Shown: positions 5,201 to 20,152 of the stretch, piece by piece
Layout: each line of letters opens with the position of its first letter
Position numbering within the stretch: the first letter of the stretch is position 1
Source of the DNA: a virus
Length of the DNA: 22,530 nt
IMG/VR virus record: IMGVR_UViG_3300020371_000065
Coordinates: 1 to 22,530 of that record
Reading direction: 5' to 3' (one strand)
Made by a program: the position numbers and the translations under genes
The notes under the pieces: generated by a model
Database searches by the model: none
Told to the model about the DNA's origin: nothing
The model's input: the letters and a program-made list of their open reading frames with translations, nothing else

Positions 5201-8200
5201 ACGAAAGAAATACATTCTCCTGGAATGCAAGTGGTACTATCAAACTACATGCAAGAAAACCAGAAACTTACGAACTCTCGGAACTTGCAGCATTTACACT
5301 GCAAGATTATCAACTATGTTCTCCATACATCAATCTTGGAGATACAAGCTTCTACTCTTCTCATACTCAACTTGGTTGTACACAACTCAAGTGGCTCAGT
5401 CTGGAAGAGTCTCACGAGAAACACACAGAGGTATACAGTCTAGGTCTCTGCTTTGATCAACCTGAACTTGATTATGGTCTTATTGTTGATCGTAACGCAG
5501 TTGCATGTGTCACAATCAATGGTGGCACAGTAACAACAAATACTACAGCAGCAACTGGATGTACCAAAGTTGCTGTTGGAACTGTACTACAGATTGCTCC
5601 TGGTGTTACTTACGAAGTTCCACCACAACTTTCTGTACCAACAGACAAACAGAACTACGGAGATATCCTTAAGGATCTCACTGGTGCTCGTATTGATTAC
5701 GGTCATATTCTTGAGGGAACTGGCATTAACTGCCCATTCGGTTCTCTTGGAACGATTGGTAATAACGCAGAGCATAGATTCTTACGTAATACTGTTGGAA
5801 CTAATGCACTGGGTGGAATTATTAGACTCAGTGGTGAGACTGACGTATTCTTCACACCTCCATATATTGTTGAGGGTGGATTTACAATTCAAGGTGCAGC
5901 AACAACGCTGTTCAGTCTATTACATCCTTCCGAAGGTGGAACCATTGCAGCATTCAGTGGTGCTGCAGAAACCGTCAGATGGTCACCAGACGAAGAACAA
6001 CTTCTCTTCACTACGAAGGGTGCTGCAACAACTCTATTCAGTCTTCTTCATCCTGGTTCTGGTGTCATCCGTGTCACACAAGACGTTGATCAGGCAAGGA
6101 CCGTACATCCATTTACAGATGGTGTCATCAGTATTGATGGTACAGCAATTGAGTCCTTTATTGCTAACCCACCAGAAGAAGCACCACTATTCAGATTTGT
6201 TGGAGACCTATCAGAATCCTTTACCACAGAATATGTTGGTGATGGTAATCTCTTTGCCTTCAGTGGATCTTCAGAACTTCTCACTTTTGCTGAACAACCA
6301 GAAGTTGATATCAGAATTGGTGGTATTTCTGCAAATGCATTTGTTCCAAATCATATTGGTTCTGGTTCACTATTTGCACTATCTGGAGCAGCAGAATCCT
6401 TTACTGCAAATCCCGAAGAGAGACAATTATTGTTCTCCTTTACTGGAACTCTTGCAGAGTCCTTTACTCCAGCACCATATATTGGATCTGGAATTGCAAA
6501 ACTTTCTGGTACAACTTCACCAGAAATCCTTACATTTGCAGAGGAACTATTCGGAACAATCTCTGTTCTTGGAGATGCAAGAGATCGCTTTACTCCACAG
6601 CATATTGGTTCTGGTTCACTATTTGCACTCAATGGTGCTGCAGAAGCAGTTGTATTCAATCCACCAGAAGAAGCACCACTATTCAAGTTTACTGGAGAAC
6701 TTACAGAAGCGTTTATCGCGAATCCTCCAGAAGAAGGAACCGAGATCAAACTTTCTGGAGATACAACTCCTCAAATTCTCACCTTCGCAGAGCAACCATT
6801 TGGTGTTATCTCTGTATTTGGAGATGCAGAAACTCCAAGGGCAAGAGACTTTATTGGATCTGGTTCACTCAGAAAACTATCTGGTGCTGCAGAGTCTATT
6901 ACATTCAACCCAGACGAGAAGCAAATGCTCTTCTCGTTTACTGGAGCATCTACCAACAAACATACCGAATCTTACTTCGGTGTGGACACACCAATCAGAA
7001 TTCGCAGAGGTTCACTCAGCGACTTCCAGACTTACGACTTCCAACCAAATTGGAATGGTTCTGGCACAGTCAGAGTATTTGGCGAAGCAGTTGCAGTTTA
7101 CTCTCCAGTATACTTTGGTTCTGGTACGTTCAGGAAATTCTCTGGTGCAGCAGAATCTCTCACTGTCAATCCAGACGAGAAGCAGATGCTGTTCTCCTTT
7201 ACTGGAGAATCTACAGAAAGAACATCTGCAACTCATGTTGGCGAGGGCAATCTATTCGCATTCAGTGGTGGAGCAGAGAGAGTTGCATATGCACCTACTC
7301 TACTCGCAGATCTCAGAATCAACGGCGAAGTCGGTATTCGTTATGTACCTAACAACGTTGGATTTGGTAATATCTTCAATATTGGTGGTGCTGCTGAATC
7401 TATCACCTTCAACCCAGATGAAAGACAACTACTATTCTCCTTCACTGGTGAGGTAGTTGAGTCCTTCGGTGTTGCCGAGACCAAGCAAATTGAAGTTGAT
7501 ATTGCTGGTGATGGTGCCTTCATTAGATCTCGTGTATATGAAGGATCTGGAACTGTCTCTGTATTTGGTGAGTCATTTAACAAACTACTCATCAACAACG
7601 TTGGATTTGGTAATATCTTCAACATTGGTGGTTCTGCAGAGGCAGTTACTTTCAATCCAGAAGAAAGACAAATGCTCTTCTCCTTCACTGGAGAGAGGAT
7701 TGCAGAGAAGAGAACTTCCAGAGAAATCAGTCAAGGTGGAGTTATCACTATTACTGGTACTGCTGGAGATCCATCTCTCACATTTGCAGAGCAACCAGAA
7801 GTTCAGGTTGCACTTTCTGGAGATGCTTATGTATTGGTATCTCAAAGGCACTTTGGTTCTGGTTCACTATTCGCATTCTCTGGTGGGGCGGAAGCAGTTG
7901 GCGCAGTTCCACCAACAGAACAAGCACTATTCAAGGTTGTTGGAGATTCCGAGAACAAGAGATCTGCAGTATATGTTGGATCTGGTTCTCTCAGAAAACT
8001 ATCTGGTGCTGCAGAATCTGTCTCGTTCAACCCAGAAGAAAGACAGATGCTCTTCTCCTTCACTGGAGAAAGAATCTCCGAGAAGAGAACTTCCAGAGAA
8101 ATCAGTCAGGGTGGAACTCTCAAGGTATCTGGCGAGTCCAGTGTTCTTCTCACTCTTGCTCATCAGGGCGAAGGAACAATTCCAGTTACTGGAGATACCA

Positions 8201-8628
8201 AGTTTACCAGAGCGAGAGACTTTGTTGGATTTGGTACACTCAGAAAACTATCTGGTGCAGCGGAATCTCTTACTTTCAATCCAACAGAAAGAGATATGCT
8301 CTTCTCCTTTACAGGAGAACGCATTGCGGAGAGAACAACATTCAGAGAACTTGGAACCGCAGGCAAGTTTACCTTCACTGGAACAAGCGGCGATCCTCTC
8401 CTCACATTTGCAGAGCAACCATTCGTTAACATTGATGTTACTGGTGACTCCGTTGATATTCGTTCCCGTGCATATCAGAGTACAGGAACCCTGTTTGCAA
8501 TCAACAACGTTGATGAAGCATTCATTAGAACTGGTTATCAAGGTTCTGGTTCACTCAAACTTTCTGGAATTGCACTTGTACAAGTACAACTATTCCAGCC
8601 TTCCCGTGTTTATGTCTGGATAATCTAA
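2290..8628 (+). CDS. Giant repeat protein, putative virion surface/fibre protein (2112 aa)
   Basis: An uninterrupted 2112-codon frame. I do not recognise an enzymatic domain. The N-terminal half contains large modules: a DYGLI...IAPG...DYGHI module at about 3772-3987, 4531-4767 and 5470-5709 with a short form at 2491-2583, and a 62-residue ARKPExY...HEKHTEVY module in two copies. From about residue 570 to the end it consists of short beta-rich repeats of the type GSGSLRKLSGAAES, then TFNPEERQMLFSFTG. About fourteen NPxE-type copies are seen, spaced irregularly (roughly 80-125 residues between some neighbours), consistent with an elongated beta structure. No signal peptide, membrane segment or chaperone domain was seen. 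The start at 2290 has no visible Shine-Dalgarno site, and the same-frame ATG at 2275 meets TAG after three codons. Position among late structural genes suggests a fibre or whisker-like virion component; similar giant proteins are annotated only as structural in cyanophages. Confidence 0.75.
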   Translation: MAVFSFISGIESQTVGQYSSFTLSSLATRQIQSFTKADARGLFGFISSEESVSYCYEPSIIDRYVELDYGLITVNHTASIDSGSITEKNRTLEDYGRIYYVTNVESFGFVKLVDGASWKATQAYQGSGNLGLFGKEQSPAFYNWITDGKVRIFGKSDPAFSPVVNGRGGPSVHGDSAIGITAITSGSGHLFSNGLKSESRTKVYPLGEEILDLVITPDDLANYNRNITNVSITNGGNGTSSNGGFNIGRHYRFSGGNTGVDRYVWFQVDVSNYESIDFEVIRGNWSNGGERPDSNEHLYFQYWTGSAWSTIGSILASDSSFDKLKTYSITPSQTVRNTNGGYVYIRAVQFNHNGGGVDNWGLRNVSLRVSADTRKTLFDVIGDAYVLRQHAYDTEGNLFNFSSATEKSIFSYQGSGTINILARKPEEYRLSELANYTLGIHPGLDANLPLGQIEFYEGHTNIGSVQLRHLTKEFSHEKHTEVYTEESINYFEKVDHGVLDVCTTTQTITGAVSGNATGCIVSVNGTASIAPGQSFRTARGINAATKFIDNGDVAKTAAPLHDYGHILITSNIMPNGLFKFRTDTGATDKFTPNWNGSGVIKIANIETVPPLDVSIVSEGGFRALGGAADTTLVTEPTEGLFKIGGNSTVVASLLHVGSGSLKKLSGASESITFNPEERQILFSFTGTLTEKYSPDHFGEGVLFTLQTAVEKSVFSYSGSGDLFGFNNLEEARVYDYSCSSIVEYRYLDYGLIVDRNNLAVTQIGTTTISTPTTGPSGAIQVATGATVTIAPGASYTVPNQLSTPQYFEDYGSVTKNAAPLHDYGWILGTIADGQPGCKYGNIEIEGVADVQFTPSWVGEGFIKLSGDAYVPLDARELGSGNIKKLGGAAETVGFSEVSTDLFKISGTPTVGITAVTINEGNLFGIGGAAESATFNPPEETPLLKFTGSAEPPLLVYSEFSSGTLFSFAGGDERNTFSWNASGTIKLHARKPETYELSELAAFTLQDYQLCSPYINLGDTSFYSSHTQLGCTQLKWLSLEESHEKHTEVYSLGLCFDQPELDYGLIVDRNAVACVTINGGTVTTNTTAATGCTKVAVGTVLQIAPGVTYEVPPQLSVPTDKQNYGDILKDLTGARIDYGHILEGTGINCPFGSLGTIGNNAEHRFLRNTVGTNALGGIIRLSGETDVFFTPPYIVEGGFTIQGAATTLFSLLHPSEGGTIAAFSGAAETVRWSPDEEQLLFTTKGAATTLFSLLHPGSGVIRVTQDVDQARTVHPFTDGVISIDGTAIESFIANPPEEAPLFRFVGDLSESFTTEYVGDGNLFAFSGSSELLTFAEQPEVDIRIGGISANAFVPNHIGSGSLFALSGAAESFTANPEERQLLFSFTGTLAESFTPAPYIGSGIAKLSGTTSPEILTFAEELFGTISVLGDARDRFTPQHIGSGSLFALNGAAEAVVFNPPEEAPLFKFTGELTEAFIANPPEEGTEIKLSGDTTPQILTFAEQPFGVISVFGDAETPRARDFIGSGSLRKLSGAAESITFNPDEKQMLFSFTGASTNKHTESYFGVDTPIRIRRGSLSDFQTYDFQPNWNGSGTVRVFGEAVAVYSPVYFGSGTFRKFSGAAESLTVNPDEKQMLFSFTGESTERTSATHVGEGNLFAFSGGAERVAYAPTLLADLRINGEVGIRYVPNNVGFGNIFNIGGAAESITFNPDERQLLFSFTGEVVESFGVAETKQIEVDIAGDGAFIRSRVYEGSGTVSVFGESFNKLLINNVGFGNIFNIGGSAEAVTFNPEERQMLFSFTGERIAEKRTSREISQGGVITITGTAGDPSLTFAEQPEVQVALSGDAYVLVSQRHFGSGSLFAFSGGAEAVGAVPPTEQALFKVVGDSENKRSAVYVGSGSLRKLSGAAESVSFNPEERQMLFSFTGERISEKRTSREISQGGTLKVSGESSVLLTLAHQGEGTIPVTGDTKFTRARDFVGFGTLRKLSGAAESLTFNPTERDMLFSFTGERIAERTTFRELGTAGKFTFTGTSGDPLLTFAEQPFVNIDVTGDSVDIRSRAYQSTGTLFAINNVDEAFIRTGYQGSGSLKLSGIALVQVQLFQPSRVYVWII
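2491..5709 (+). repeat. Long modular repeats in the N-terminal half of the giant protein
   Basis: Two module types alternate. Module A, bounded by DYGLI/DHGVL and DYGHI/DYGWI with an IAPG core, occurs at 3772-3987 (72 codons), 4531-4767 (79) and 5470-5709 (80), with a core-less 31-codon version at 2491-2583. Module B, ARKPExYxLSEL to HEKHTEVY, occurs at 3553-3738 and 5251-5436. Both B copies are exactly 62 codons, align without gaps, and share 33 of 62 residues by my count. Module B directly precedes module A in both places, so a B-A block appears to have been duplicated. Confidence 0.8.
4240..8370 (+). repeat. Short beta repeats GSGxLxxLSGAAES / NPxERQxLFSFTG
   Basis: About fourteen copies of a two-part repeat, SGAAES then T-F-N-P-E-E-R-Q-x-L-F-S-F-T-G, can be followed from about 4260 to about 8320. 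Later copies are nearly identical at DNA level. Examples are the segment AACAACGTTGGATTTGGTAA, present at 7351 and again at 7594, and GAACTTCCAGAGAAATCAGT, present near 7712 and again near 8087. This indicates recent internal duplication or gene conversion. Confidence 0.8.
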
Positions 8629-9500: not shown

Positions 9501-12500
9501 ATGGCAGATTTTAGACTCGGCAGACTGAAGTTTAAGTGGCGCGGTGATTGGGTCGCGTCCACAGCTTATGTCATTGACGATATTGTCAAGTTTGGTGCAA
9601 ACTCCTATGTTTGTACTACCAATCACACCTCCGCAGCTGCGGAAGCTTCTTTTTATGGAGATCTAAGTAATTGGGATATCCATACAGAAGGTCTTCGCCA
9701 TAGAGGAGAATGGCAAGGTGGAACTGGACAGCAAGGACAGAACCTCAATACGTATTACAAGATTAATGATGTTGTAAAGTACGGAAACTCGCAATATCGT
9801 TGTATTGAAGGTCACACGTCATCTGCCAACATTGACTTTACCAAGTGGTCACTTTACGCCGAAGGTCTAAAATTTGAAGATACTTACGTCAACACAACTG
9901 CTTATCAGTTAGGCGACGTTGTAACATTTGGCGGTTACTCTTATATCGCACTTCAAAATTCTACAGGAATTGCTCCTAACACAGACGGAACTGCATGGGC
10001 AGTAATTTCAACTGGATTCTCCGCACAGGGTGAATATACTACATCGGAAGTTTATGAGCCTGGTAATGTCGTAAGATACGGTGGTAATTCATATTCCTGT
10101 AAAGTTACAACCAACAATGAGACTTTTAACGTTGGTTCTGTTTCTGGTGATGGTTCGGTAGTAACTATTATTTTCCAAACTGCACAAGGAACTGCACCTT
10201 TTGGTGTCGGTGATGAAATCGTTGTTGCTGGTGCTAGTGTTGGTGGATATAACGGAACTCATAGAGTAACTTCATGTACAACTGTACAGGTAACCTACGC
10301 AGGTACAGAAACTGCAGGTGGAAGCACTGGTGGAAATATTACATACACACCAGTACCAACTAATACGAGATTCTGGGATCTAATTGTTGAAGGATTTAAT
10401 TGGACTGGCGCATGGTCATCCTCAACTTACTATCAACTTGGTGATGTTGTTAACAGAAACTCAAACTCTTATGTTTGCGTAACCTCTAATACAACTGGAG
10501 CAGCAAATGCACCAGAATTAGATACCCTAGGTAACTACTGGAACTATATGTCCCAGGGTGGTAATGCAGCGCAGGTGCTCCAAGAGGTTGGTGACTTGCT
10601 ATATCAATCTGCGGGTGGTATTAACAGAATTGCACTTCCTGCTGGATCTACTGGTACTGCTGCGGAACAAGCAGCGGCAAGTGGTCAGGTTCTAACAGTT
10701 GGTGGTTCACCACTTCTACCAAGATGGGAGACTAACAACTCAACTGCTCCTGTTTACTACGTTACTAAAGAAGGTAACGATGCGAACCATGGTAGAAGCA
10801 TTTCTAGAGCATTCGCTTCACTACGCCATGCTTGCGATTACATCGCTGCAAAAACTGGTGCAGATGCTCCATCTGCATCTAATCCACATACAATCTATGT
10901 AAAGGCAGGTGTCTACGAAGAGACACTACCAATTCAAATTCCTCAGTTTGTTTCTGTTATTGGTGATAACCTAAGAACTTCAATCATCAAACCTGAATTC
11001 GGACTGAACTCCGATATGCAGGCGATTGTCCTTGGTTCAAGTGTAACTCACCTCAAATTTGGTGATACTGTTTCTAACGCTGATGGAACTAAGACTGCTA
11101 AAGTTGTAGATTCTGACTATGCAACAAACATCCACTTAGTTTCTAAAACTGGTGGAGCATGGACAACATCAGATCTTTATGTTGACATTGTAAGTCATAA
11201 GCACGCTGATGCTCACGACTTAATTCTAAGCAATAAAGCATTTATTGCTGCAGAAGCATATCATCGCCATGCTGCTAATGAGGGTGCTGTTGCTGGCGTT
11301 GAAGCAGACGTTAAGACTCAGTTACAGGCGTTTATTGACGCACTTGCATACAACGTTAAAGCAGGTCAAAATAATAAAGTTTGGGACTTTGCCAATGCTC
11401 GCATCGGTGGTACAAACATTACTGGTAACGACACTCAAGATACAACGCTTCTAAACTACATTGATAGCATTGCGACTCAAGTAATGCGTAATGAGACAGT
11501 AACGGTCTCAGCAGGAAATACGGAGACTCAGACTAAAGATCTAAACGTCACAACTGATTCTACTTCTCCATATTGTGCTCAGGTTGCATCTGCAATTACA
11601 ACTCTGGTTGGTATTGTTACTACTGCAATCAGTAATACCAATATGAATGCAACTTCCAAAGTTGAACCTTATATTGCAATTACTGCTGCTACGACTCGCG
11701 TAAACCAAGAGTCAACCATGTTCTACGTTGGTTCTCATACCACCGTTAAGGACATGATCTTTGAAGGAATGAGTGGATTTGTCCCATCAACTAGCAATGA
11801 TCAAGATGTGGACACCTCCACAATCAAAGGTGTTTACTTCAGACTTGATCCTAATTCACCAATTACTAAGTCGCCATACATCCAAAACTGTACTGCGATT
11901 GGTGGTGCAGCAGTTGGTATCATGATTGATGGTGCGGTTCACGCACACTTTGATAATTCGGCAACACCATCTTATAAGTCAATGGTGTTTGATGCTTACA
12001 CCCAGATCCTAGATGGTGGTGTTGGTTTCTATGTAACGAGAGGCGCTTCTTCTGAGGTTGTTTCTTGCTTCACATACTACGCTCACATCTCATACAGCAC
12101 AACCAGAGGTGGTAAGATTCGTGCTGTTTCTGGTAACTCCTCGTATGGTAAGTACGGTGTTATCTCTAGAGGATTTGACGATACTGAAGCAACTATCAAT
12201 GGTCAAGTCAAGGGTCTAAGATTAGAACTTGATCCTCAGCAAGCAAAGAACGGTACGTTCACAGTTGGCGAGAGAATCAGTGGTGGTACATCTGGAGCAG
12301 TTGGTGAACTAATCAGTGACCAAACTGCATCTAATTACATCTATTACTTCCCAGTTAAAGGAACATTTGTTCAAAACGAAGTTGTTACTGGTGCATCATC
12401 AAGTGCATTCGTCACCCTAGTTAATAATACAGATGCTGTAACTGGTCAAAAAGGATTCCTACTTACTGTTACTGGTCTAACTGCAGCACCTGACCAAGGT

Positions 12501-14648
12501 GGTTCTGTTGAGATGGTTGACGATGGAGTTAATAATGACCCAGGTTCATTCGTTATCTCTAACTCAAGTTACTCTGCTCCAGATGGAAGAGGTACTATTA
12601 CAACTTCTAGAGCAAAACTAGGATCATCACCAGTCGCACACTTAGGTACAGCACAAGTTGACCTATATGCAAACCAAGGTCAAACTGCATCACTACAAGG
12701 AACAATCCTTCAGTCTGCAGGTTCTCCTTACACTATTGCAGTTAACAGTGTTACTGGAATGGTTATTGGTGGTTATCTTGTTATTAACGACGAGATGTTC
12801 CAAGTCGCTTCCTTCCCATCATCCACATCAGTTGAAGCAACTCGTGCGGTAGAAGGAACCACTGCTCAAGCACACGCTGCTGGAGATACAATTGAAATTC
12901 TAGCACAAAAAGTTAGTGCTCAGGATGAAGTTATTGAAGACTTTGGAAACGCTGCTTCTGATATTCGTGTTAGTGCTGCAAACATCGGTTTCAGCAACAC
13001 CGACTATATCAAGATTGATAATGAATTCTTCAAGATTACTGCGGTAACACCAGATACAACTGGTATTTCAATTCTGCAGTTGGCGGATGAGAAGACCGTT
13101 GGTGCTTCCAATCCTCAGGACATGAAGATTCGTTATCGTTATTCACAGTGTCGTCTAACTGCTCACGACTTCCTAGACGTTGGTACTGGAAGCAAGGCAA
13201 ATACTAACTGGCCATTCCTACCTCTATCACCAAATACACCTGCTAACGAGACCATTGAGGATCGCCCAGGTCGTGTTTACTACGTCTCCACGGACCAAGA
13301 TGGTAACTTCTCGGTTGGTAAGTTCTTTAAGGTTGAGCAGGCAACTGGTAAAGCAACTCTGGATGCTTCCGCGTTTGACTTGTCTGGTCTATCATCCTTG
13401 AGACTGGGTTCTATTGGTGCTCAACTTGGTGCATCAATTAACGAATTCTCAACTGATGGAACTCTATCACAAAATAGTGATGAAAAAGTTCCAACACAGA
13501 AAGCAGTTAAGACTTATGTTGATAACCTCTCTGGTGTTGACGGTAACTTCTTAGTTGGTGGAGATCTAACAGTTCAGGGAGCAACTACAACTGTTGCTTC
13601 AGTAACAGTTGAATCTAAGGATCGTAACATTACTCTAGGTAAGGTTGCAACTGGTACATTTACTGGTGATATGTCCTCAGGACAAACCACCATTCAAAAT
13701 GTAAGTGATACCGAAAATCTTGCTCCTGGTGTACTTATTAACATCACTAGTGGTGCTGGAGCACTAACACTTCCTGCAGGTGCTATTGTTCAAAGCATTT
13801 CAGGATCCACAGTAACTCTTAACCAGGCATTCCAAGGAACTGGTTCTGCTACTGGTGCTTCATTCTCTGCTGGCGGTCCAAGAAATGAGACTGCTGACGG
13901 CGGTGGTTTAACGCTACTCGCTGGATCTGATGTTGACAAGTCATTCGCATGGCAAGCAAGCAACTCTTCTTGGAATTCTTCAGAAGACCTCAACCTTGCT
14001 AGCGGTAAGGTTCTCAGAATTAATGGCGTAGAAGTTCTAAGTGCTACTCAAGTTCTTGGACTACAAGTTGGTGGTTCTGGATCTGGTGGAATTGTAACTG
14101 AAGATGCAACACAAACACTTACTAACAAAACTCTCTCTGGTGGTGTTCTTACTGGAACATTAACTGCTGGTAGTAGCACTGGTTCTGCTGGTTACTACCT
14201 AGAGTCAACTGGTAGTGGTGTTCAGTGGTCTCAACTTAATGTTGATGCTTCTGCAATTACCAATGGATCTACAAATATCACTGCTGCTAATGGTGGAGAT
14301 ATTACAGTCACAACTTCTGGTTCGCTCTGTGCAACATTCAATACCTCCAATAACTTGATTGTTACTGGAACTGTTACTGCACAGTCTTCCATCGCTCTCA
14401 AGGATAATGTAGAAACCATTACTGATGCTCTTGCTAAAGTAATGAATCTACGTGGTGTTGAGTTTGACTATAAGGCAAATGGTAAGCACCAAATTGGTGT
14501 TGTTGCTGAAGAAGTTGAGCAAGTTGTTCCATGTGTTATTGATGAAACAAACGGTATTAAGTCCGTTGCATATCAAAACCTTGTTGCTGTTCTTATTGAG
14601 GCAGTCAAGGACCTTAAGAACGAGATTGACGAACTAAGAGGAGTCTGA
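9501..14648 (+). CDS. Modular tail fibre with CBM-like repeats, beta-helix and S74 chaperone (1715 aa)
   Basis: The start has AAGGAT about 8 nt upstream. Residues 12-350 hold about five repeats of the chitin-binding/CBM5-12-like type (W-x-x-x-T-x-Y-x-x-G-D-V-V-x-F-G-G-x-S-Y-x-C), likely glycan binding; the fourth and fifth are separated by an inserted beta module at about 205-285. From about residue 418 (YYVTKEGNDANHG, then TIYVKAGVYEETLPI) a right-handed beta-helix of the pectate-lyase-like/DUF1565 kind begins. A helical Ala/Asn-rich insert occupies about residues 567-715 (AHDLILSNKAFIAAEAYHRH through VASAITTLVGIVTTAI). One copy of the beta module seen in the 475-aa protein is near 1385-1460. 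The C-terminal 87 residues form a Peptidase_S74 intramolecular chaperone (SSIALKDNVE, GVVAEEVEQVVP, VAYQNLVAVLIEAV). By analogy with endosialidases it trimerises the fibre and is then cut off at S1629. A likely receptor-binding or long tail fibre. Confidence 0.85.
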   Translation: MADFRLGRLKFKWRGDWVASTAYVIDDIVKFGANSYVCTTNHTSAAAEASFYGDLSNWDIHTEGLRHRGEWQGGTGQQGQNLNTYYKINDVVKYGNSQYRCIEGHTSSANIDFTKWSLYAEGLKFEDTYVNTTAYQLGDVVTFGGYSYIALQNSTGIAPNTDGTAWAVISTGFSAQGEYTTSEVYEPGNVVRYGGNSYSCKVTTNNETFNVGSVSGDGSVVTIIFQTAQGTAPFGVGDEIVVAGASVGGYNGTHRVTSCTTVQVTYAGTETAGGSTGGNITYTPVPTNTRFWDLIVEGFNWTGAWSSSTYYQLGDVVNRNSNSYVCVTSNTTGAANAPELDTLGNYWNYMSQGGNAAQVLQEVGDLLYQSAGGINRIALPAGSTGTAAEQAAASGQVLTVGGSPLLPRWETNNSTAPVYYVTKEGNDANHGRSISRAFASLRHACDYIAAKTGADAPSASNPHTIYVKAGVYEETLPIQIPQFVSVIGDNLRTSIIKPEFGLNSDMQAIVLGSSVTHLKFGDTVSNADGTKTAKVVDSDYATNIHLVSKTGGAWTTSDLYVDIVSHKHADAHDLILSNKAFIAAEAYHRHAANEGAVAGVEADVKTQLQAFIDALAYNVKAGQNNKVWDFANARIGGTNITGNDTQDTTLLNYIDSIATQVMRNETVTVSAGNTETQTKDLNVTTDSTSPYCAQVASAITTLVGIVTTAISNTNMNATSKVEPYIAITAATTRVNQESTMFYVGSHTTVKDMIFEGMSGFVPSTSNDQDVDTSTIKGVYFRLDPNSPITKSPYIQNCTAIGGAAVGIMIDGAVHAHFDNSATPSYKSMVFDAYTQILDGGVGFYVTRGASSEVVSCFTYYAHISYSTTRGGKIRAVSGNSSYGKYGVISRGFDDTEATINGQVKGLRLELDPQQAKNGTFTVGERISGGTSGAVGELISDQTASNYIYYFPVKGTFVQNEVVTGASSSAFVTLVNNTDAVTGQKGFLLTVTGLTAAPDQGGSVEMVDDGVNNDPGSFVISNSSYSAPDGRGTITTSRAKLGSSPVAHLGTAQVDLYANQGQTASLQGTILQSAGSPYTIAVNSVTGMVIGGYLVINDEMFQVASFPSSTSVEATRAVEGTTAQAHAAGDTIEILAQKVSAQDEVIEDFGNAASDIRVSAANIGFSNTDYIKIDNEFFKITAVTPDTTGISILQLADEKTVGASNPQDMKIRYRYSQCRLTAHDFLDVGTGSKANTNWPFLPLSPNTPANETIEDRPGRVYYVSTDQDGNFSVGKFFKVEQATGKATLDASAFDLSGLSSLRLGSIGAQLGASINEFSTDGTLSQNSDEKVPTQKAVKTYVDNLSGVDGNFLVGGDLTVQGATTTVASVTVESKDRNITLGKVATGTFTGDMSSGQTTIQNVSDTENLAPGVLINITSGAGALTLPAGAIVQSISGSTVTLNQAFQGTGSATGASFSAGGPRNETADGGGLTLLAGSDVDKSFAWQASNSSWNSSEDLNLASGKVLRINGVEVLSATQVLGLQVGGSGSGGIVTEDATQTLTNKTLSGGVLTGTLTAGSSTGSAGYYLESTGSGVQWSQLNVDASAITNGSTNITAANGGDITVTTSGSLCATFNTSNNLIVTGTVTAQSSIALKDNVETITDALAKVMNLRGVEFDYKANGKHQIGVVAEEVEQVVPCVIDETNGIKSVAYQNLVAVLIEAVKDLKNEIDELRGV
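14385..14648 (+). other. S74 (endosialidase-type) intramolecular chaperone domain
   Basis: These 87-88 codons encode the C-terminal chaperone of the 1715-aa fibre. The family signature is S-D-x-R-x-K-x-N; here it reads S1629-S-I-A-L-K1634-D-N. The cleavage serine and the catalytic lysine are therefore kept while the Asp and Arg are replaced. The later helices (LVAVLIEAVKDLKNEIDEL) form the usual C-terminal coiled coil that drives trimerisation. Autocleavage before S1629 is expected but not shown. Confidence 0.8.
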
Positions 14649-14652
14649 ACAT

Positions 14653-15186
14653 ATGTCATTGACAATGACGGGGCAGGGGTTGCAATTCCCCTCCCCTGGT
14701 AACAGAAGAAACATTAAGAGAACCTTTTTCTTAAGAGATAATAATCCAAATTCAACCACTTATAGTGGTAGTTGGACTACTGGTTGGACTACAAATACAT
14801 TCACAATTCCAGCAAAATGTGAACTTGACACTCATGTACATTGGCCAATTAGAAATAACTCAACTAGTTGGGGTGGCGGATATAGTCGCATGTATTATGA
14901 AGTAAATGGAAATGGTTGGATCTATGGTGGACAATATGGTTATTGCCGTGGTGCCATGGGACATGGACGTTACATGATTAGTGGAACTGACTGGGTTCAG
15001 GCATGGGATTTCAAAGGAATGACTAGTGATTTCACATTAAGATTTAGATATGATCACTTAACTCATGATGGCACTGCTTATACAGGTGCTGATCATGGAT
15101 TAACAGGAGCATCAAATCAAGATTACCATGGAGCACAAACTCCATGGATGTATTACCTAAATATTCAAGGTTGGCAGTACGAGTAA
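14653..15186 (+). CDS. WGG-motif Trp/Tyr-rich virion protein, paralog 1 (177 aa)
   Basis: The start ATG has AGGAG 9 nt upstream. The protein is small, beta-rich and unusually aromatic (9 Trp and 14 Tyr in 177 residues). It shares two signatures with two nearby genes: SWGGGYSRMYYEVNGNGW at residues 72-89 and W-D-F-K-G-M-T-S-D-F-T-L-R-F-R at 118-132. The N-terminus TGQGLQFPSPG resembles the GIQFP-type leader found on many phage structural proteins. No catalytic motif, signal peptide or membrane segment is visible. Its stop codon overlaps the next start (TAATG), so paralogs 1 and 2 are probably translated together. Most likely a tail-fibre tip, adhesin or capsid-decorating protein; the family name is not known to me. 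Confidence 0.7.
   Translation: MSLTMTGQGLQFPSPGNRRNIKRTFFLRDNNPNSTTYSGSWTTGWTTNTFTIPAKCELDTHVHWPIRNNSTSWGGGYSRMYYEVNGNGWIYGGQYGYCRGAMGHGRYMISGTDWVQAWDFKGMTSDFTLRFRYDHLTHDGTAYTGADHGLTGASNQDYHGAQTPWMYYLNIQGWQYE
14670..14696 (+). other. GC-rich hairpin inside the start of paralog 1
   Basis: GGGG-C-AGGGG at 14670-14679 pairs with CCCCTCCCC at 14688-14696, a 9-bp stem with one bulged C and an 8-nt TTGCAATT loop. It starts at codon 6 of the gene. No T-tract follows, so it is not a standard terminator. It shares the 13-mer GGGGTTGCAATTC with the terminator at 2244-2274. A role in translation or mRNA stability is possible; a coding explanation (LQFP leader) is also possible. Confidence 0.5.
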
Positions 15187-15743
15187 TGAGCATTTTAAGA
15201 CCAGACGGAATTCAATTTGGTGGAGGACATGGAGCCTCTGCTGGTGAAAACCTCCAAAATAGTGGATGGTTTCATTACAGATTTACCATGACCAATGGCG
15301 TTGGTTATGGTAGTGGTTGGACTAATACTCAAGACACAGGAACCATGAATTTGCCTGCAAGGGCAAAAGTGTTTGTTTACACAAATACTCCAACTAGAGG
15401 AGACACCAATGCTTGGGGTGGAATGTATGAAGATCTTCTCTATTCAGTAAATGGTGGAAGTTTTACTAGTGTAGGACGTGCTGGATTTGTTTGTAGAATG
15501 ATGACCAGTGGATATCCAATTTCCAACCATGCGGATTTCTGTGTATTTGATTTCAACTCAATTACCTCAGACTTCACTCTACAATTGAGAACTGCATCAA
15601 CCCAGTATAATTCAGGTGGTCAGGTTAATACTTCATGTGGTTTAAGTGGTGGTGACAATAATACTACTTACACTGCATTAAACCAGCAGAATAGTATGTA
15701 CAAACAAATTATTGTTTGGGGATTCGGCACTACTGCTGCTTGA
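15186..15743 (+). CDS. WGG-motif virion protein, paralog 2 (185 aa)
   Basis: I chose the ATG at 15186 because it overlaps the stop of paralog 1 (TAATG) and gives the N-terminus MSILRPDGIQFGGG, which aligns with the LxxDGIQF leader style of its relatives; an upstream in-frame ATG at 15144 lies within paralog 1. The core is conserved: NAWGGMYEDLLYSVNGGSF at residues 75-93 and FDFNSITSDFTLQLR at 121-135, closely matching FDFSSITTNFTVAFR in paralog 3. It is less Trp-rich (4 Trp). The C-terminal strand MYKQIIVWGFG parallels MYYLNIQGW in paralog 1. Beta-rich, no signal or transmembrane segment. Probably a virion adhesin or fibre component made together with paralog 1. The gene is followed by a late promoter. 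Confidence 0.7.
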   Translation: MSILRPDGIQFGGGHGASAGENLQNSGWFHYRFTMTNGVGYGSGWTNTQDTGTMNLPARAKVFVYTNTPTRGDTNAWGGMYEDLLYSVNGGSFTSVGRAGFVCRMMTSGYPISNHADFCVFDFNSITSDFTLQLRTASTQYNSGGQVNTSCGLSGGDNNTTYTALNQQNSMYKQIIVWGFGTTAA

Positions 15744-15744
15744 T

Positions 15745-15752
15745 TATAAATA
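15745..15752 (+). promoter_or_regulatory. T4-type late promoter box TATAAATA
   Basis: TATAAATA starts 2 nt after the stop of paralog 2, with 35 nt between the box and the ATG at 15788, the same arrangement as at 731. The intervening leader contains TTAGGATAA, a weak ribosome-binding site. It is the nearest recognisable promoter for the 148-aa gene, paralog 3 and the three enzyme genes downstream. Confidence 0.75.
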
Positions 15753-15787: not shown

Positions 15788-16234
15788 ATGGCACTTAGAG
15801 GAACTGATGAGAACCTGAATAGATCAGTAAGGGTATCTTTTATGCCACCTTGTCTACTTGAGTGCGCCGAAATGTTAGATCCAAATTTTATTGGATCTTT
15901 TACAGAAAGAGGTGCTCTTGATAATTTTCCTGGAGAACCAGGAATCACATCGGTGGATGACTTTGAGTATAATCCTGCTTATGGAGATGACCCAAATACT
16001 CCATTAGCATATGATATGCCTTTTACTAAAGAAGAACTTCTCGCAAAGTATCAAGAACAATTTGCGGCATATGAAGCAACTGAAGTAACTAGACTAAAAA
16101 GAAAATTTGAATACCCTGGTATTGGAGAGCAACTAGATGCTCTTTTCCATGATATGGAAAATGGAACCGCAGATTCATCAGGAGAATTTTTCCGTTTAAT
16201 TAAAGAAGTAAAAGATACCTATCCAAAGGGTTGA
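15788..16234 (+). CDS. Phage protein with C-terminal YPxIxxQLDxL motif (148 aa)
   Basis: An acidic soluble protein. Residues 108-148 carry the motif Y-P-G-I-G-E-Q-L-D-A-L-F-H-D, a short spacer, then FFRLIKEVKDTYPKG. This combination (YPxxxxQLDxLYH ... IKxVKxxYPK) recurs in small phage proteins encoded beside tail fibres in many marine phages and T4-like viruses. The middle (TKEELLAKYQEQFAAYEAT, residues 79-97) is predicted helical. The N-terminal 70 residues with FMPPCLLECAEMLDPNF are not recognised. No enzymatic motif. It sits directly after a late promoter and 20 nt before paralog 3. A role in fibre assembly or as a small virion protein is an inference from context only. Confidence 0.65.
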   Translation: MALRGTDENLNRSVRVSFMPPCLLECAEMLDPNFIGSFTERGALDNFPGEPGITSVDDFEYNPAYGDDPNTPLAYDMPFTKEELLAKYQEQFAAYEATEVTRLKRKFEYPGIGEQLDALFHDMENGTADSSGEFFRLIKEVKDTYPKG

Positions 16235-16237
16235 TCT

Positions 16238-16257
16238 ACAGGAGATAGTAACAAGTG
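16238..16257 (+). promoter_or_regulatory. Ribosome-binding site deciding a GTG start
   Basis: ACAGGAGAT (AGGAG at 16240-16244) stands 10 nt before GTG at 16255-16257 in the 20-nt gap after the 148-aa gene. The first in-frame ATG is at 16321, inside the conserved part of the protein, so GTG is the only sensible start. Confidence 0.75.
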
Positions 16258-16818
16258 GCATTCACTCTAACAGCAGACGGTTTTACTGACGGTACAAATA
16301 CTCAGTCAACCGCCCCATTCATGTACAATCATACTGATACTTCGGGAACTGGTATCGGTAGTGGTCAAGTTGAATTGATGACCACTCCAGACTGGAAGAC
16401 TCCACCAAGAGCGATGGGTCAAGTTTGGATGTATATGCCCCAAAGAAATGATAATGGAAACTGGGGTGGTCACCACATTAGAATGTACTATAGAATTAAT
16501 GGTGGCAGTTGGGTTGATATGGGACAAAGTGGATATTCACAAACTGATACCACAATGGCATACCCAGGTGGAGGTAGAATTGATACTCAATGTCAGTCAT
16601 GGAGTTTTGATTTTAGTTCTATTACAACTAATTTTACTGTTGCATTTAGATTTGACGGTTACTATCATGATGGTAGTGGAGCATATTTAACTAGTTGTTC
16701 TTGTACCTCTGGTGGAAACTCCACTTATACTTTTAATTATGATGGCGATGGCAATAGAACTGCCAATGGTGGTAATTATAGTTGTGGACATGTTGCTTGG
16801 TTTGGACAAGGACAATAA
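16255..16818 (+). CDS. WGG-motif virion protein, paralog 3 (187 aa, GTG start)
   Basis: It starts at GTG with a good AGGAG site 10 nt upstream. The N-terminus AFTLTADGFTDGTNTQSTAP resembles the leaders of its relatives. The two family signatures are present: NWGGHHIRMYYRINGGSW at residues 69-86 (WGG at 70-72) and SFDFSSITTNFTVAFRFDG at 117-135. Six Trp and many Tyr, Gly and Asn. The tail after residue 150 is Gly/Asn-rich with a final HVAWFGQGQ strand. No known catalytic residues, signal peptide or membrane span. It is separated from paralogs 1 and 2 by the 148-aa gene and its promoter, and lies 18 nt before the enzyme cassette. Probably a fibre or surface virion protein. Confidence 0.7.
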   Translation: MAFTLTADGFTDGTNTQSTAPFMYNHTDTSGTGIGSGQVELMTTPDWKTPPRAMGQVWMYMPQRNDNGNWGGHHIRMYYRINGGSWVDMGQSGYSQTDTTMAYPGGGRIDTQCQSWSFDFSSITTNFTVAFRFDGYYHDGSGAYLTSCSCTSGGNSTYTFNYDGDGNRTANGGNYSCGHVAWFGQGQ

Positions 16819-16836: not shown

Positions 16837-17499
16837 ATGATTGATATTGATAATTTTTATAATTCTACAGTAGAACTAAACCATAACGAACAAGAATCTT
16901 CTCCAAATAACTTAAAATGGCGTCAAACGATGTTTGGTTCCATAGATCCTGTAGAGTTATATGGAGACAAGGTTAAAGTTTTTAGAAATGTATTGGAATC
17001 TCATGCGGGTGTTTCATGGGATTCTATTATTCCAATAATAGATAAAGATTTAGATAGAGGACATGTAAGGATCTTAGATCCGAAAGCAAATACCCTTGCA
17101 ACATATAACCGACAATATCTTCCAGTAAATGAAGAAGTGCGGTTTGAAATTCCACCAGAAACTCAGCAGTGGATGTATGGGTTTGTTTTACATTCCGTAA
17201 AATCATATCCAGATGAATTAAAAAAATTATTTCTGGAAGCAAAAGAGAAATTTAAAATTAATCAGTGCCACACATACTGCTCACTATCAACTAGATCAAC
17301 TTTGTTAAGCAGACATGATGATCCAATGAGTGTTTTGATTGTTGGAGGATTGGGGGAAGTGGAATATGAATTTGACGATGGTAAAAAATACACTATAAAT
17401 CCTGGAGACGCTATTTACATACCTAGAAAGACTTATCATAAACCAAAAATTTTTGGATCTAGGATAACTTTTTCATATTGCTGGACATACGATACTTGA
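16837..17499 (+). CDS. Cupin/JmjC-like protein, putative Fe(II)-dependent oxygenase (220 aa)
   Basis: The C-terminal half carries a cupin double-stranded beta-helix. Metal-ligand candidates are H160 and D162 in S-R-H-D-D-P-M-S, followed by VLIVGGLGEVEYEF, and H201 at the end of the classic second cupin motif PGDAIYIPRKTYH (residues 189-201). An H-x-D...H arrangement is typical of cupin_8/JmjC and ribosomal-oxygenase-type 2-oxoglutarate enzymes, which hydroxylate protein side chains, but 2-oxoglutarate dependence cannot be decided from the sequence. The N-terminal 100 residues (LKWRQTMFGSIDPVELYG) may be the lid or substrate domain. No Shine-Dalgarno site is visible; an ATG at 16823 is followed at once by TAA, so 16837 is taken as the start. 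It is the first of three closely spaced enzyme genes (7 nt before the next). Substrate unknown. Confidence 0.7.
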   Translation: MIDIDNFYNSTVELNHNEQESSPNNLKWRQTMFGSIDPVELYGDKVKVFRNVLESHAGVSWDSIIPIIDKDLDRGHVRILDPKANTLATYNRQYLPVNEEVRFEIPPETQQWMYGFVLHSVKSYPDELKKLFLEAKEKFKINQCHTYCSLSTRSTLLSRHDDPMSVLIVGGLGEVEYEFDDGKKYTINPGDAIYIPRKTYHKPKIFGSRITFSYCWTYDT

Positions 17500-17506
17500 A
17501 TTAATT

Positions 17507-18157
17507 ATGTTTAACCCTAACGATATCAATATATTTGAAAATGTCTTACCTCTAGACATTAATAGTGAGATGCATTCTGTACTAATGAGTCATCCAAGAT
17601 GGACTGTTGTTTCAGATAACCTACCAATTGATATATTTCAGTTGACACATGGTGGATGTGATGCAGGTATGATTATTTGTTCATACAGAAATCTTAAGAG
17701 TAACTCTATCAGAATAGAAAGTGAAAGAATAAGAACAGATTCAGATCAAGGTGATCCTACCATGAATGATTTGAATTTTTATGGAGATCTAATTAAGAAG
17801 TTGATACTTAATAAGTGTATTGTAAAAAATGGATATACTAGTTACGAGGCATTTTTTAATATAACAACGGTAAGATATTTTTGGAATTACTACCATGATA
17901 GTTCTGTAGGAGTTCCCCACACAGATATCAATGAACCAAATCATTGGAGTATCATTTATTACTTAAATGACAATCCTGGGAAAGGAACTATTGTTTGGAA
18001 ACCAAATGAAGATGGAACTGTAGAAGAGATTTTAGTTCCCCATGTTGCGGGGAATGCTTGTATTTTCCCATCTCATTGGAGACATAGCGGTACTACACCA
18101 AATAAGAATACTCATAGGTCTTGTTTGAATATTCTTTTCAAAGCAGAATTGAGATAA
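17507..18157 (+). CDS. 2-oxoglutarate/Fe(II) oxygenase, prolyl-4-hydroxylase type (216 aa)
   Basis: The catalytic core is clear. H138 and D140 in VPHTDINEPNHWSIIYYLN form the first two iron ligands. Residues 185-209 contain A-C-I-F-P-S-H-W-R-H-S-G with the distal His (H193 the better candidate, H190 the alternative) and R204 in THRSCLNILF, which would bind the 2-oxoglutarate carboxylate. GKGTIVWKPNEDG gives the usual strand between them. This matches the P4H-like family found in many cyanophages, which hydroxylates proteins or small metabolites using O2 and 2-oxoglutarate. The N-terminal 130 residues are not recognised. There is no Shine-Dalgarno site; the start is the first ATG 7 nt after the cupin gene, and 6 nt separate its stop from the next gene. 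Substrate unknown. Confidence 0.85.
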   Translation: MFNPNDINIFENVLPLDINSEMHSVLMSHPRWTVVSDNLPIDIFQLTHGGCDAGMIICSYRNLKSNSIRIESERIRTDSDQGDPTMNDLNFYGDLIKKLILNKCIVKNGYTSYEAFFNITTVRYFWNYYHDSSVGVPHTDINEPNHWSIIYYLNDNPGKGTIVWKPNEDGTVEEILVPHVAGNACIFPSHWRHSGTTPNKNTHRSCLNILFKAELR

Positions 18158-18163
18158 TATAGT

Positions 18164-19315
18164 ATGTTTGAATATGAAGATTTTGAGAGTTTAAAAAAAT
18201 TACTTGATACTGTACCAGTTGTAACTCCATCATTTGAAACAAAAATTGCTGTAATTGGAAAAGGGACTGCTTCGTTGCTTTTAATTCCTTCTCTAATACG
18301 GAATGGTTGTGATGTAACAATATACTTTGATTCCAATAAACCAGAGTTAGGCGTTGGAGAATCAACAGTTCCAACAGTTCAAAAACAATTGGCACCAGTA
18401 GGAATCTTCATTGAATCCTTGGTGAGAAAAAACATTGCTTCATATAAAACTGGAGTAAGGTTTTTTGATTGGGGTAAATCTGATACGTTTGATCATCCAT
18501 TCAATTCTAATGATTTGGCATTTCATTTTTACACAAAAGATTTTAATAAACACGTCAGCGGTGTTTATGAAAAAACTAAAGTGTGTAAATTTGTAGATGA
18601 AAAAGTTGATAAAGTTGTTGAGACAGAAAGTGGCGTAACTGTAAATGGGAAACAATTTGATTTTGTTGTTCATGCTTCTGGATGGTCCGAAGATTTAACA
18701 ACATACATCTCCTCCCCATTTGAAACTGTAAATACAGGGATTACGTTTACAAAAAATCCACACACAGCATTTACAACAACTGTTCATAGAGCAACAGAAA
18801 ACGGTTGGCAATTTGAACTTCCGTATCCAGAGAATAATAAGTCTAGATGTGGATATCTTTTTAACAGAAATATTTCAAATGCAGAAGAGATACTTAACAA
18901 CTTTGGTTATGAGATTGAATCTTATCTAAAATGGAATCCTAGGTATTCCGAAAATATTATTGTATCAAATAGGCAAGCATTAATTGGAAATGCTTTGTTC
19001 TTCTTTGAACCATTGCAAGCATTCTCTACTCATTATTATTGTGTCTTTTCCGATTTTATTTCGGAATATATTCCACATATTGGCACAGAATCAAAACGTT
19101 CTGAAATTAATCAGTCATATAAAGAGTATATAAAAGATTACTTAAACGTTATTGCTTTTCACTACAAACATGGTTCAAAACACAAAACCCCCTTTTGGAC
19201 AGATATACAAAGAAGAGCAAACGAATTTCTCCCAGACTCTGTAAAATCTTTTAAGTTTTTCGGACAGTATGATTTTGATGTGATCTTAAATGGAATGACT
19301 GGTCACGTCAATTGA
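18164..19315 (+). CDS. Flavin-dependent tryptophan-halogenase-like protein (383 aa)
   Basis: Residues 27-40 (KIAVIGKGTASLLL) form the FAD-binding Rossmann turn, GxGTAS instead of the usual GGGTAG. GVGESTVPTVQ at 63-73 is the halogenase GES loop. K95 in ASYKTGVRFFDWG aligns with the catalytic Lys79 of PrnA. DFVVHASGW at 166-174 is the second FAD motif. GWQFELP at 214-220 corresponds to WxWxIP with the second Trp replaced by Phe217. GNALFFFEPLQAFSTHY at 275-291 corresponds to the GDA...EPLEST region; by eye the catalytic Glu/Ser pair of PrnA falls on Q285/A286. The length is well below the ~500-540 residues of bacterial tryptophan halogenases, so the C-terminal part is reduced. Related proteins occur in cyanomyoviruses; VirX1 of cyanophage Syn10 is a known viral halogenase favouring iodide. 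Halogenation here is plausible but unproven; a non-halogenating monooxygenase is the alternative. Third gene of the cassette, no own Shine-Dalgarno site. Confidence 0.8.
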   Translation: MFEYEDFESLKKLLDTVPVVTPSFETKIAVIGKGTASLLLIPSLIRNGCDVTIYFDSNKPELGVGESTVPTVQKQLAPVGIFIESLVRKNIASYKTGVRFFDWGKSDTFDHPFNSNDLAFHFYTKDFNKHVSGVYEKTKVCKFVDEKVDKVVETESGVTVNGKQFDFVVHASGWSEDLTTYISSPFETVNTGITFTKNPHTAFTTTVHRATENGWQFELPYPENNKSRCGYLFNRNISNAEEILNNFGYEIESYLKWNPRYSENIIVSNRQALIGNALFFFEPLQAFSTHYYCVFSDFISEYIPHIGTESKRSEINQSYKEYIKDYLNVIAFHYKHGSKHKTPFWTDIQRRANEFLPDSVKSFKFFGQYDFDVILNGMTGHVN

Positions 19316-19321
19316 TAAATA
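19314..19321 (+). promoter_or_regulatory. Late promoter box GATAAATA
   Basis: GATAAATA overlaps the TGA stop of the halogenase-like gene, with 27 nt between the box and the ATG of gene 13. It matches the cyanophage late -10 box and probably drives the neck/terminase operon 13-14-15-16. Confidence 0.7.
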
Positions 19322-19348
19322 CCATTAGGAAAACTATAGGTATATCGT

Positions 19349-20152
19349 ATGGCTCAGCCTGCCAGTAGGACCGAGCTAAGGGACTATTGTCTTAGACAGT
19401 TAGGGTTCCCAGTTCTGGAGATCAACGTAGACGATGATCAAATTGAAGACGCTATTGATGATGCTCTGCAATATTATAGAGAGCGTCATTATGATGGTGT
19501 TGAGCGCATGTACCTCAAGCATGAGTTTACTGCTGCTGACCAAACTAAGTTTGAAACTTCAGATACTACCACAACAATCAATGGTGATGTTTGGGAAGAG
19601 AGAAACAGATACATCTCTATTCCACCTCACGTCATGGGAATTTCTAAAGTTTTTGGACTTGCAAGTAATGCCATCAGAAATAACCTATTTGGTATTGAGT
19701 ATCAGATATTTCTAAATGATCTCTATGCAGTTGGTTCCCTTGACATGCTTAACTACTACATGGTTAAGCAGTGGATGGAAACTATTGACATGGTTCTAAA
19801 CAACGGATCATTCGTAGAGTTTAGATTTAACCAACGTCAAGATAGACTTTATCTAGATGTTGGTAAGGACATGCTTGACGAAGACGTATATGTCATCATT
19901 GATTGTTACAGAGCATTAGATCCAGATACTTTTACGCAAGTTTATAATGATCCTTTTGTCAAAAAATATACCACATCACTGATTAAAAGACAGTGGGGTC
20001 AAAACTTGATTAAGTTCAATGGCATCCAACTTCCTGGTGGTGTCAGTATGAACGGTAGAGAGTTATATACAGATGCAGTAAATGAGATTGCCGAGATGAT
20101 GGCAAAATCATCTAGCACATTTGAATTGCCCCCAATGGACATGATCGGATGA
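19349..20152 (+). CDS. 13: Head completion/neck protein gp13 (267 aa)
   Basis: The sequence SRTELRDYCLRQLGFPVLEI, then NVDDDQIEDAIDDALQYYRERHYDG, is the characteristic N-terminus of T4-type gp13 in cyanomyoviruses. Gp13 joins with gp14 to complete the neck of the filled head before tail attachment. Length 267 residues against 309 in T4. The C-terminus (TDAVNEIAEMMAKSSSTFELPPMDMIG) is typical. The gene begins 27 nt after a late promoter, with only a weak AGG upstream, and its last four bases overlap gene 14 (ATGA), indicating translational coupling. Identification is supported by the order 13-14-15-16, as in T4. Confidence 0.92.
   Translation: MAQPASRTELRDYCLRQLGFPVLEINVDDDQIEDAIDDALQYYRERHYDGVERMYLKHEFTAADQTKFETSDTTTTINGDVWEERNRYISIPPHVMGISKVFGLASNAIRNNLFGIEYQIFLNDLYAVGSLDMLNYYMVKQWMETIDMVLNNGSFVEFRFNQRQDRLYLDVGKDMLDEDVYVIIDCYRALDPDTFTQVYNDPFVKKYTTSLIKRQWGQNLIKFNGIQLPGGVSMNGRELYTDAVNEIAEMMAKSSSTFELPPMDMIG

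Follow-up and report, generated by a model that had tools for sequence, protein, structure and literature searches.

Genes A, B and C, which encode a putative JmjC/cupin-like Fe(II) oxygenase, a predicted 2OG-Fe(II) oxygenase and a predicted compact flavin-dependent halogenase, appear from comparison with related genomes to be one filling of an exchangeable island that T4-like cyanomyoviruses carry between gp13 and the fibre-tip genes. The existence of this exchangeable island together with its late transcription unit is very probable. To our knowledge, cyanophage halogenase and 2OG genes have been listed for over a decade without a known role, and the comparison places them in an exchangeable, probably late-transcribed island between the fibre module and the gp13 late promoter. 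The fuller statement, that the enzymes of this exchangeable late island decorate fibre-tip proteins, is tentative and falls just short of an even chance.

Boundaries, exchange and transcription of the island

The window, which is the whole stretch of DNA analysed (22,530 nucleotides), is a 22.5-kb IMG/VR virus record and represents a genome fragment of a marine T4-like cyanomyovirus. Its gp13, which shares 64% identity with the gp13 of Synechococcus phage S-CAM3, is followed by gp14 and then gp15. The three enzyme genes were confirmed on the + strand with gaps of 7 and 6 nt (Table 1), in agreement with an earlier note on this sequence. The "adhesin paralogs" of that note are a real family of three putative adhesins, beta-rich and with weak jelly-roll resemblance; a scan for further loci with close relatives of adh3 gave none. 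In the region encoding the 2112-aa protein (2290-8628), long shadow ORFs are present in other frames.

Table 1. Features of the window, from the large repeat-rich gene to the neck gene
Feature	Position	Strand	Remarks
2112-aa repeat-rich protein	2290-8628		phrog_11522 (12 matching stretches)
1715-aa tail fibre	9501-14648	+	phrog_9851
adh1, small beta-rich fibre-tip-like paralog	14653-15186	+	
adh2, small beta-rich fibre-tip-like paralog	15144-15743	+	
Late-promoter motif TATAAATA	15745-15752	+	43 nt upstream of orf148
orf148	15788-16234	+	phrog_1787 family; first gene of the probable late unit
adh3, fibre-tip-like paralog	16255-16818	+	GTG start; low-confidence beta-rich model
Gene A, JmjC/cupin-like putative Fe(II) oxygenase	16837-17499	+	H160-x-D162, H201, R209
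Gene B, predicted 2OG-Fe(II) oxygenase	17507-18157	+	H138-x-D140, H193, R204
Gene C, predicted compact flavin-dependent halogenase	18164-19315	+	catalytic K95, GWQFELP motif, FEPL motif
Late-promoter motif GATAAATAC	19314-19322	+	35 nt upstream of gp13; right boundary of the island
gp13 neck gene	19349-20152	+	conserved right flank

Both edges of the island can be located by comparison with rearranged relatives. On the right, backbone homology resumes at 19309-19324 in ten of them (19270 in L008), a position that coincides with the gp13 late promoter GATAAATAC. On the left, homology to L005 and L008 stops where adh3 ends, and homology to L089, L101 and L095 stops where the large fibre gene ends; for these last three, the 1715-aa tail fibre is the limit of conserved homology. 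This placement of the left edge suggests that fibre tips and enzymes are replaceable as one block.

Close IMG/VR relatives have the adh3 and gp13 flanks in common and differ in what lies between them. The slot of L004 contains A-B-C, that of L005 and of contig 3300021376_000518 contains C-B in inverted order without A, and that of L008 contains B alone. In L089, whose gp13 is 99% identical to that of the window, the slot reads 2OG, full-length halogenase, unknown protein, 2OG, 2OG, B ortholog and carbamoyltransferase, and in L101 two 2OG genes accompany a full-length halogenase. These differing fillings of a single slot across the window, L004, L005, L008, L089 and L101 support the reading of an exchangeable island. 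Between the window (18164-19409) and L004, gene C and the following intergenic region are 98-100% identical, and identity falls to about 80% inside gp13 at what has the appearance of a recent recombination junction. The difference between gene C (about 99%) and gp13 (about 80%) suggests that genes recombine individually. The earlier note had proposed that the three enzymes may act on one substrate in sequence. With order and membership varying among relatives, from C-B to B alone or another halogenase with oxygenases, a fixed three-gene, single-substrate pathway can be set aside as a unit. The trio is not conserved in co-occurrence or order, largely the pattern that the earlier note had itself named as contrary to its proposal.

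The late promoter of gp13 is conserved (NATAAATAC), and the window sequence GATAAATAC conforms to the late-promoter motif already known from cyanophages, NATAAATA (PMC2984593). This motif lies within 100 nt upstream of gp13, mostly near -35, in 50 of 80 distinct loci, compared with 97 of 3460 random windows (2.8%). A second late motif, before orf148 at 15745, is conserved in L005, L008, L089, L095 and L101, and no late-promoter motif occurs between adh3 and gene A; the absence of a promoter belonging to the enzymes themselves, as the earlier note had it, is thus borne out for the late motif. Together, the motif before orf148 and the lack of one between adh3 and gene A point to a transcription unit orf148-adh3-A-B-C. 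The late promoter at 15745 would drive orf148, adh3 and the enzymes, and the late promoter belonging to gp13 would form the right bound of the island. Promoter motifs therefore agree with the expectation of late expression, and the slot enzymes are probably transcribed late with the fibre-tip gene. A scan for sigma-70 promoters gave fewer matches than in shuffled sequence and is therefore uninformative.

The composition of the island is distinct from that of the structural genes. The GC contents quoted earlier for four 60-base lines (25, 28, 40 and 45%) are correct, and the difference holds per gene, with 0.330, 0.327 and 0.325 for A, B and C against 0.37-0.45 for the other genes of the window; the minimum among 100 structural windows of 220 codons is 0.383. 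Enzyme islands in L089, L093, L095, L101 and L110 also have 28-36% GC, which weakens low GC as a sign that the trio was recently acquired. Of the "separately acquired functional unit" that had been suggested, an exchangeable low-GC island therefore remains, while the compositional argument for recent acquisition of the trio loses force. Similarly, Shine-Dalgarno sites are indeed absent before A, B and C, but they are likewise absent before giant1, gp13, gp14 and gp15, so their absence is uninformative and is excluded as a mark of foreign origin. The dN/dS values of A, B and C (0.11-0.18) indicate purifying selection.

Genes A, B and C and their families

The active-site residues of the three enzymes are intact. 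Gene A remains below the Pfam cut-offs for Cupin_2 (9.5e-6, 25.7 bits, cut-off 27.2) and JmjC_2 (5e-4, 20 bits, cut-off 22) and matches phrog_4992 at 2.7e-24. Its HxD...H metal triad and R209 are invariant in 4 relatives with identity down to 26%, and a scan for further loci with close relatives of gene A gave none. In L044 (11588-12791), a gene A relative that exceeds the JmjC_2 cut-off (1.7e-11) is directly followed by the N-terminus of a carbamoyltransferase (4.8e-16), and the surrounding fibre array includes a halogenase and oxygenases as well.

Gene B is, as judged from its sequence, a divergent 2OG-Fe(II) oxygenase. Its match to 2OG-FeII_Oxy_5 (PF13759) is below the cut-off (0.0075, 17.1 bits, cut-off 27), related 2OG oxygenases in the slot of relatives exceed that cut-off, and it matches phrog_274 at 2.4e-16 and phrog_81 at 1.1e-5. 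The iron triad and downstream R204 are invariant in 4 sequences. Orthologs of gene B (61-94% identity) are found in all five lineages that carry the adhesin family of the window, with none above 38% identity outside those lineages, and gene B is kept in L089 despite rearrangement of the remaining island. Within this comparison, gene B appears as the constant partner of the adhesin family of the window, with A and C optional. The PHROG label of gene B as a DNA endonuclease is rejected, given the 2OG triad and the lack of any match to an endonuclease family in Pfam. More widely, the labels "DNA endonuclease" and "DNA endonuclease V" have been given to proteins (phrog_274, phrog_2297 and denV in S-SSM7) that resemble 2OG-Fe(II) oxygenases; the HxD...H...R motif is present in those at L170:6138-7128, L183:14960-15514 and window 17507-18157, and the denV-labelled protein of S-SSM7 matches PF13640 at 5.1e-9. 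Such labelling is apparently a mistake in annotation that is being propagated through cyanophage records.

Gene C passes the cut-off for Trp_halogenase (PF04820; 1.3e-24, 87.3 bits, cut-off 21) and matches phrog_2928 at 4e-57. K95 is invariant in 27 relatives and aligns with the catalytic-lysine region of solved enzymes (K79 in PrnA). At the position of the WxWxIP motif, gene C has GWQFELP, in which W215, F217 and P220 are invariant, the second W is replaced by F and the I by L. At the GxGxxG position it has GKGTAS, with the first two glycines invariant and the third replaced. The AlphaFold model (pLDDT 91) has TM scores of 0.75-0.80 to solved halogenases, including 0.79-0.80 to 2pyx and PrnA by query length. 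With 383 aa, the protein lacks 100-150 residues relative to most of the solved family members and, from the fold of this model, is a predicted compact flavin-dependent halogenase.

In a maximum-likelihood tree, the halogenases of the slot fall into at least two distant clades, a compact clade (window, L004 and L005) and a full-length clade (L089, L101 and S-SSM7), which indicates that halogenases entered the slot on more than one occasion. For the compact clade together with its relatives there are 268 viral matches. Among 84,980 cellular species genomes, a scan with short patterns, which can miss distant relatives, gave a single match, on a Nonlabens contig. This 188-kb contig (NZ_RMVE01000006.1, L188:1-8954), part of the Nonlabens xiamenensis assembly, contains genes like those of cyanophage P-TIM40, including the halogenase and thyX-like and phoH-like genes, and is probably a contaminant cyanophage genome; with such neighbours, the match does not sustain a cellular origin of the compact halogenase. 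Members of the gene C family occur in many unrelated genomic contexts, with relatives near gp55/gp47, gp44/62, baseplate genes, thyX/phoH or psbA. In L028 (3957-10062), a 385-aa and a 490-aa halogenase, which belong to different clades, lie near a psbA-like gene on one contig.

Slot contents in other cyanophages

Across 80 gp13 loci and several isolates, 2OG oxygenases are frequent in the slot and halogenases are found there at times. The word "unusual", which the earlier note applied to metabolic genes in tight co-transcription with fibre-like genes, is therefore not apt, the S-SSM6a cluster being known as well (PMC7824862). The slot carries four 2OG genes in L093, three in L110, two in L092, about six or seven in L095, one or two in each of L153, L154, L156, L162 and L164, and at least eight in S-RSM4; S-PM2 and S-BM3 have none. 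In the 12 kb before gp13 of 15 isolate genomes there are 15 2OG genes against 8.6 expected, a modest enrichment driven by S-RSM4 and S-SSM7. The S-SSM7 slot contains carbamoyltransferases, 2OG genes, a halogenase, a cupin and heptose/sugar genes, and that of S-CAM3 contains sugar genes, a carbamoyltransferase and a cupin. The island would thus often collect Fe(II)/2OG oxygenases and sometimes flavin halogenases, along with genes for cupins or carbamoyltransferases, all of which would reassort. In another recurrent filling, about three reverse-strand genes (roughly 290, 295 and 150 aa) form a block between the fibre genes and gp13; this block is present in L119, L121, L123, L125, L153, L154, L156 and L164, often with 2OG genes.

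Halogenases accompanied by oxygenases are also found in or beside fibre arrays in L010, L012, L021, L044 and L052, and the isolates S-SRM01, S-ShM2 and S-RIM4 have a halogenase beside fibre genes. In the freshwater Synechococcus phage S-SRM01 (L180:2410-7018), a tail fibre and an annotated gp37-gp38 adhesin tip complex flank a full-length halogenase. Oxygenase and halogenase genes are neighbours in 6 of 22 clusters, where 2.5 would be expected by chance (p 0.02), in a test with small numbers in which only locus composition was held fixed. A general coupling of halogenase and 2OG genes across cyanophages is unsupported, as only 2 of 10 halogenase-carrying isolates have an oxygenase nearby.

Halogenases of viruses (VirX1), expansions of 2OG genes and the S-SSM6a cluster have been described before, and the trio of the window is a minimal version of a recurring, partly described island. 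The halogenase/2OG/cupin cluster of the jumbo cyanophage S-SSM6a (Iyer et al. 2021, PMC7824862), together with that of S-SSM7, resembles the window in combining a halogenase, 2OG oxygenases and a cupin. The S-SSM7 cluster (101657-113847, gp13 at 113885) also lies between a tail fibre and gp13, a location observed here and outside the published definition for S-SSM6a. Unlike these clusters, the window island has only three genes and a compact halogenase of another clade, and its slot, in a genome fragment, contains neither the S-SSM6a-type core of carbamoyltransferase and amino-acid methylase nor sugar genes. VirX1 of cyanophage Syn10 (PDB 6QGM) is likewise a phage flavin halogenase, which gene C matches at 1e-8 with the catalytic-lysine region in common, but VirX1 has 531 aa against 383 aa for gene C, in which GWxFxLP replaces the usual WxWxIP. 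The array of several 2OG-Fe(II) oxygenases before gp13 in S-RSM4 occupies the same slot, though without a halogenase and with some members annotated as DNA endonuclease or ferrochelatase. Published cyanophage hotspots (Sullivan et al. 2010, PMC3037559) similarly hold variable auxiliary genes between conserved virion genes; they are listed near gp5, gp46-gp25, gp16-gp17 and near psbA, and the slot between fibre genes and gp13, bounded by a late promoter, is not one of them. In the literature searched, no description was found of the fibre-gp13 slot as a late-promoter-bounded exchange site, of repeated installation of unrelated halogenases in it, or of the constant pairing of gene B with one fibre-tip family.

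Possible substrates of the slot enzymes

In the favoured reading, the enzymes would chemically decorate fibre-tip proteins produced from the same late transcript. Genes A and B would hydroxylate and gene C would halogenate aromatic side chains, and the decoration would diversify or harden the adsorption surface. This reading is favoured by the probable late co-transcription with adh3, by the constancy of gene B with the adhesin family of the window, by the unrelated halogenase-oxygenase pairs in fibre arrays without recognised sugar genes, and by the compact halogenase fold, which in the model may have a more open active site. Against it stand the many gene C relatives in contexts without a fibre link, the scarcity of oxygenases near the halogenases of isolates (2 of 10), the slots of S-SSM7, S-CAM3 and L089, whose carbamoyltransferase genes (with sugar genes in the first two) better fit glycan or metabolite chemistry, and the fact that the pairing of gene B with the adhesin rests on five lineages in which the slot may have common descent. 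That fibre-tip proteins are the substrate of the slot enzymes is accordingly a possibility held at somewhat less than even confidence. The stronger form, in which the island is a virion post-translational modification system whose hydroxylases and halogenase modify the co-transcribed fibre-tip proteins, with tips and enzymes swapped together, is unlikely.

No relevant report emerged from a literature search on the modification of phage tail fibres by 2OG enzymes, and we know of no report of halogenated amino acids on a phage virion. In the available part of a proteomic study of S-SZBM1 virions, the one enzyme detected is a cytidylyltransferase and no halogenase or 2OG oxygenase is named among the virion proteins, so this part gives no sign that such enzymes are virion components (PMC9146016). 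If modification of fibre tips is true, it would reveal a layer of host-range chemistry. The comparison makes the question of why phages carry halogenases directly testable on fibre-tip proteins.

Nearly as likely as the modification of fibre tips, though itself held with reserve, is the tailoring of surface glycans or small molecules. The enzymes would then modify a polysaccharide on the host surface and so block superinfection, or produce a halogenated metabolite derived from an amino acid or sugar, and the linkage to fibres would reflect co-transfer of receptor-binding and receptor-altering genes. Its standing comes from the sugar and carbamoyltransferase genes that accompany halogenase, 2OG or cupin genes in the slots of S-SSM7 and S-CAM3, from the carbamoyltransferase in L089, and from the published prediction of secondary metabolite or capsule decoration for S-SSM6a (PMC7824862); in addition, VirX1 acts on small aromatics in vitro (PMC8407142). 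However, the slot of the window has no sugar, carbamoyl or carrier-protein gene, none was recognised beside the halogenase-oxygenase pairs in L012, L021 and L052, and late transcription would leave little time for remodelling of the host.

A pure hotspot, in which insertions are simply tolerated in the slot and genes A, B and C serve separate functions without a common substrate, is less likely than either of these readings and improbable overall: unconserved order and membership, the gene-level recombination with L004 and the genome-wide abundance of 2OG genes in cyanophages (1-19 per isolate here, 24 reported in S-SCSM1; PMC9602691) agree with it, but two distant halogenase clades recur in one slot, oxygenases adjoin halogenases above chance, the slot contents of several lineages are largely oxidative tailoring enzymes, and gene B stays with one adhesin family through rearrangement.
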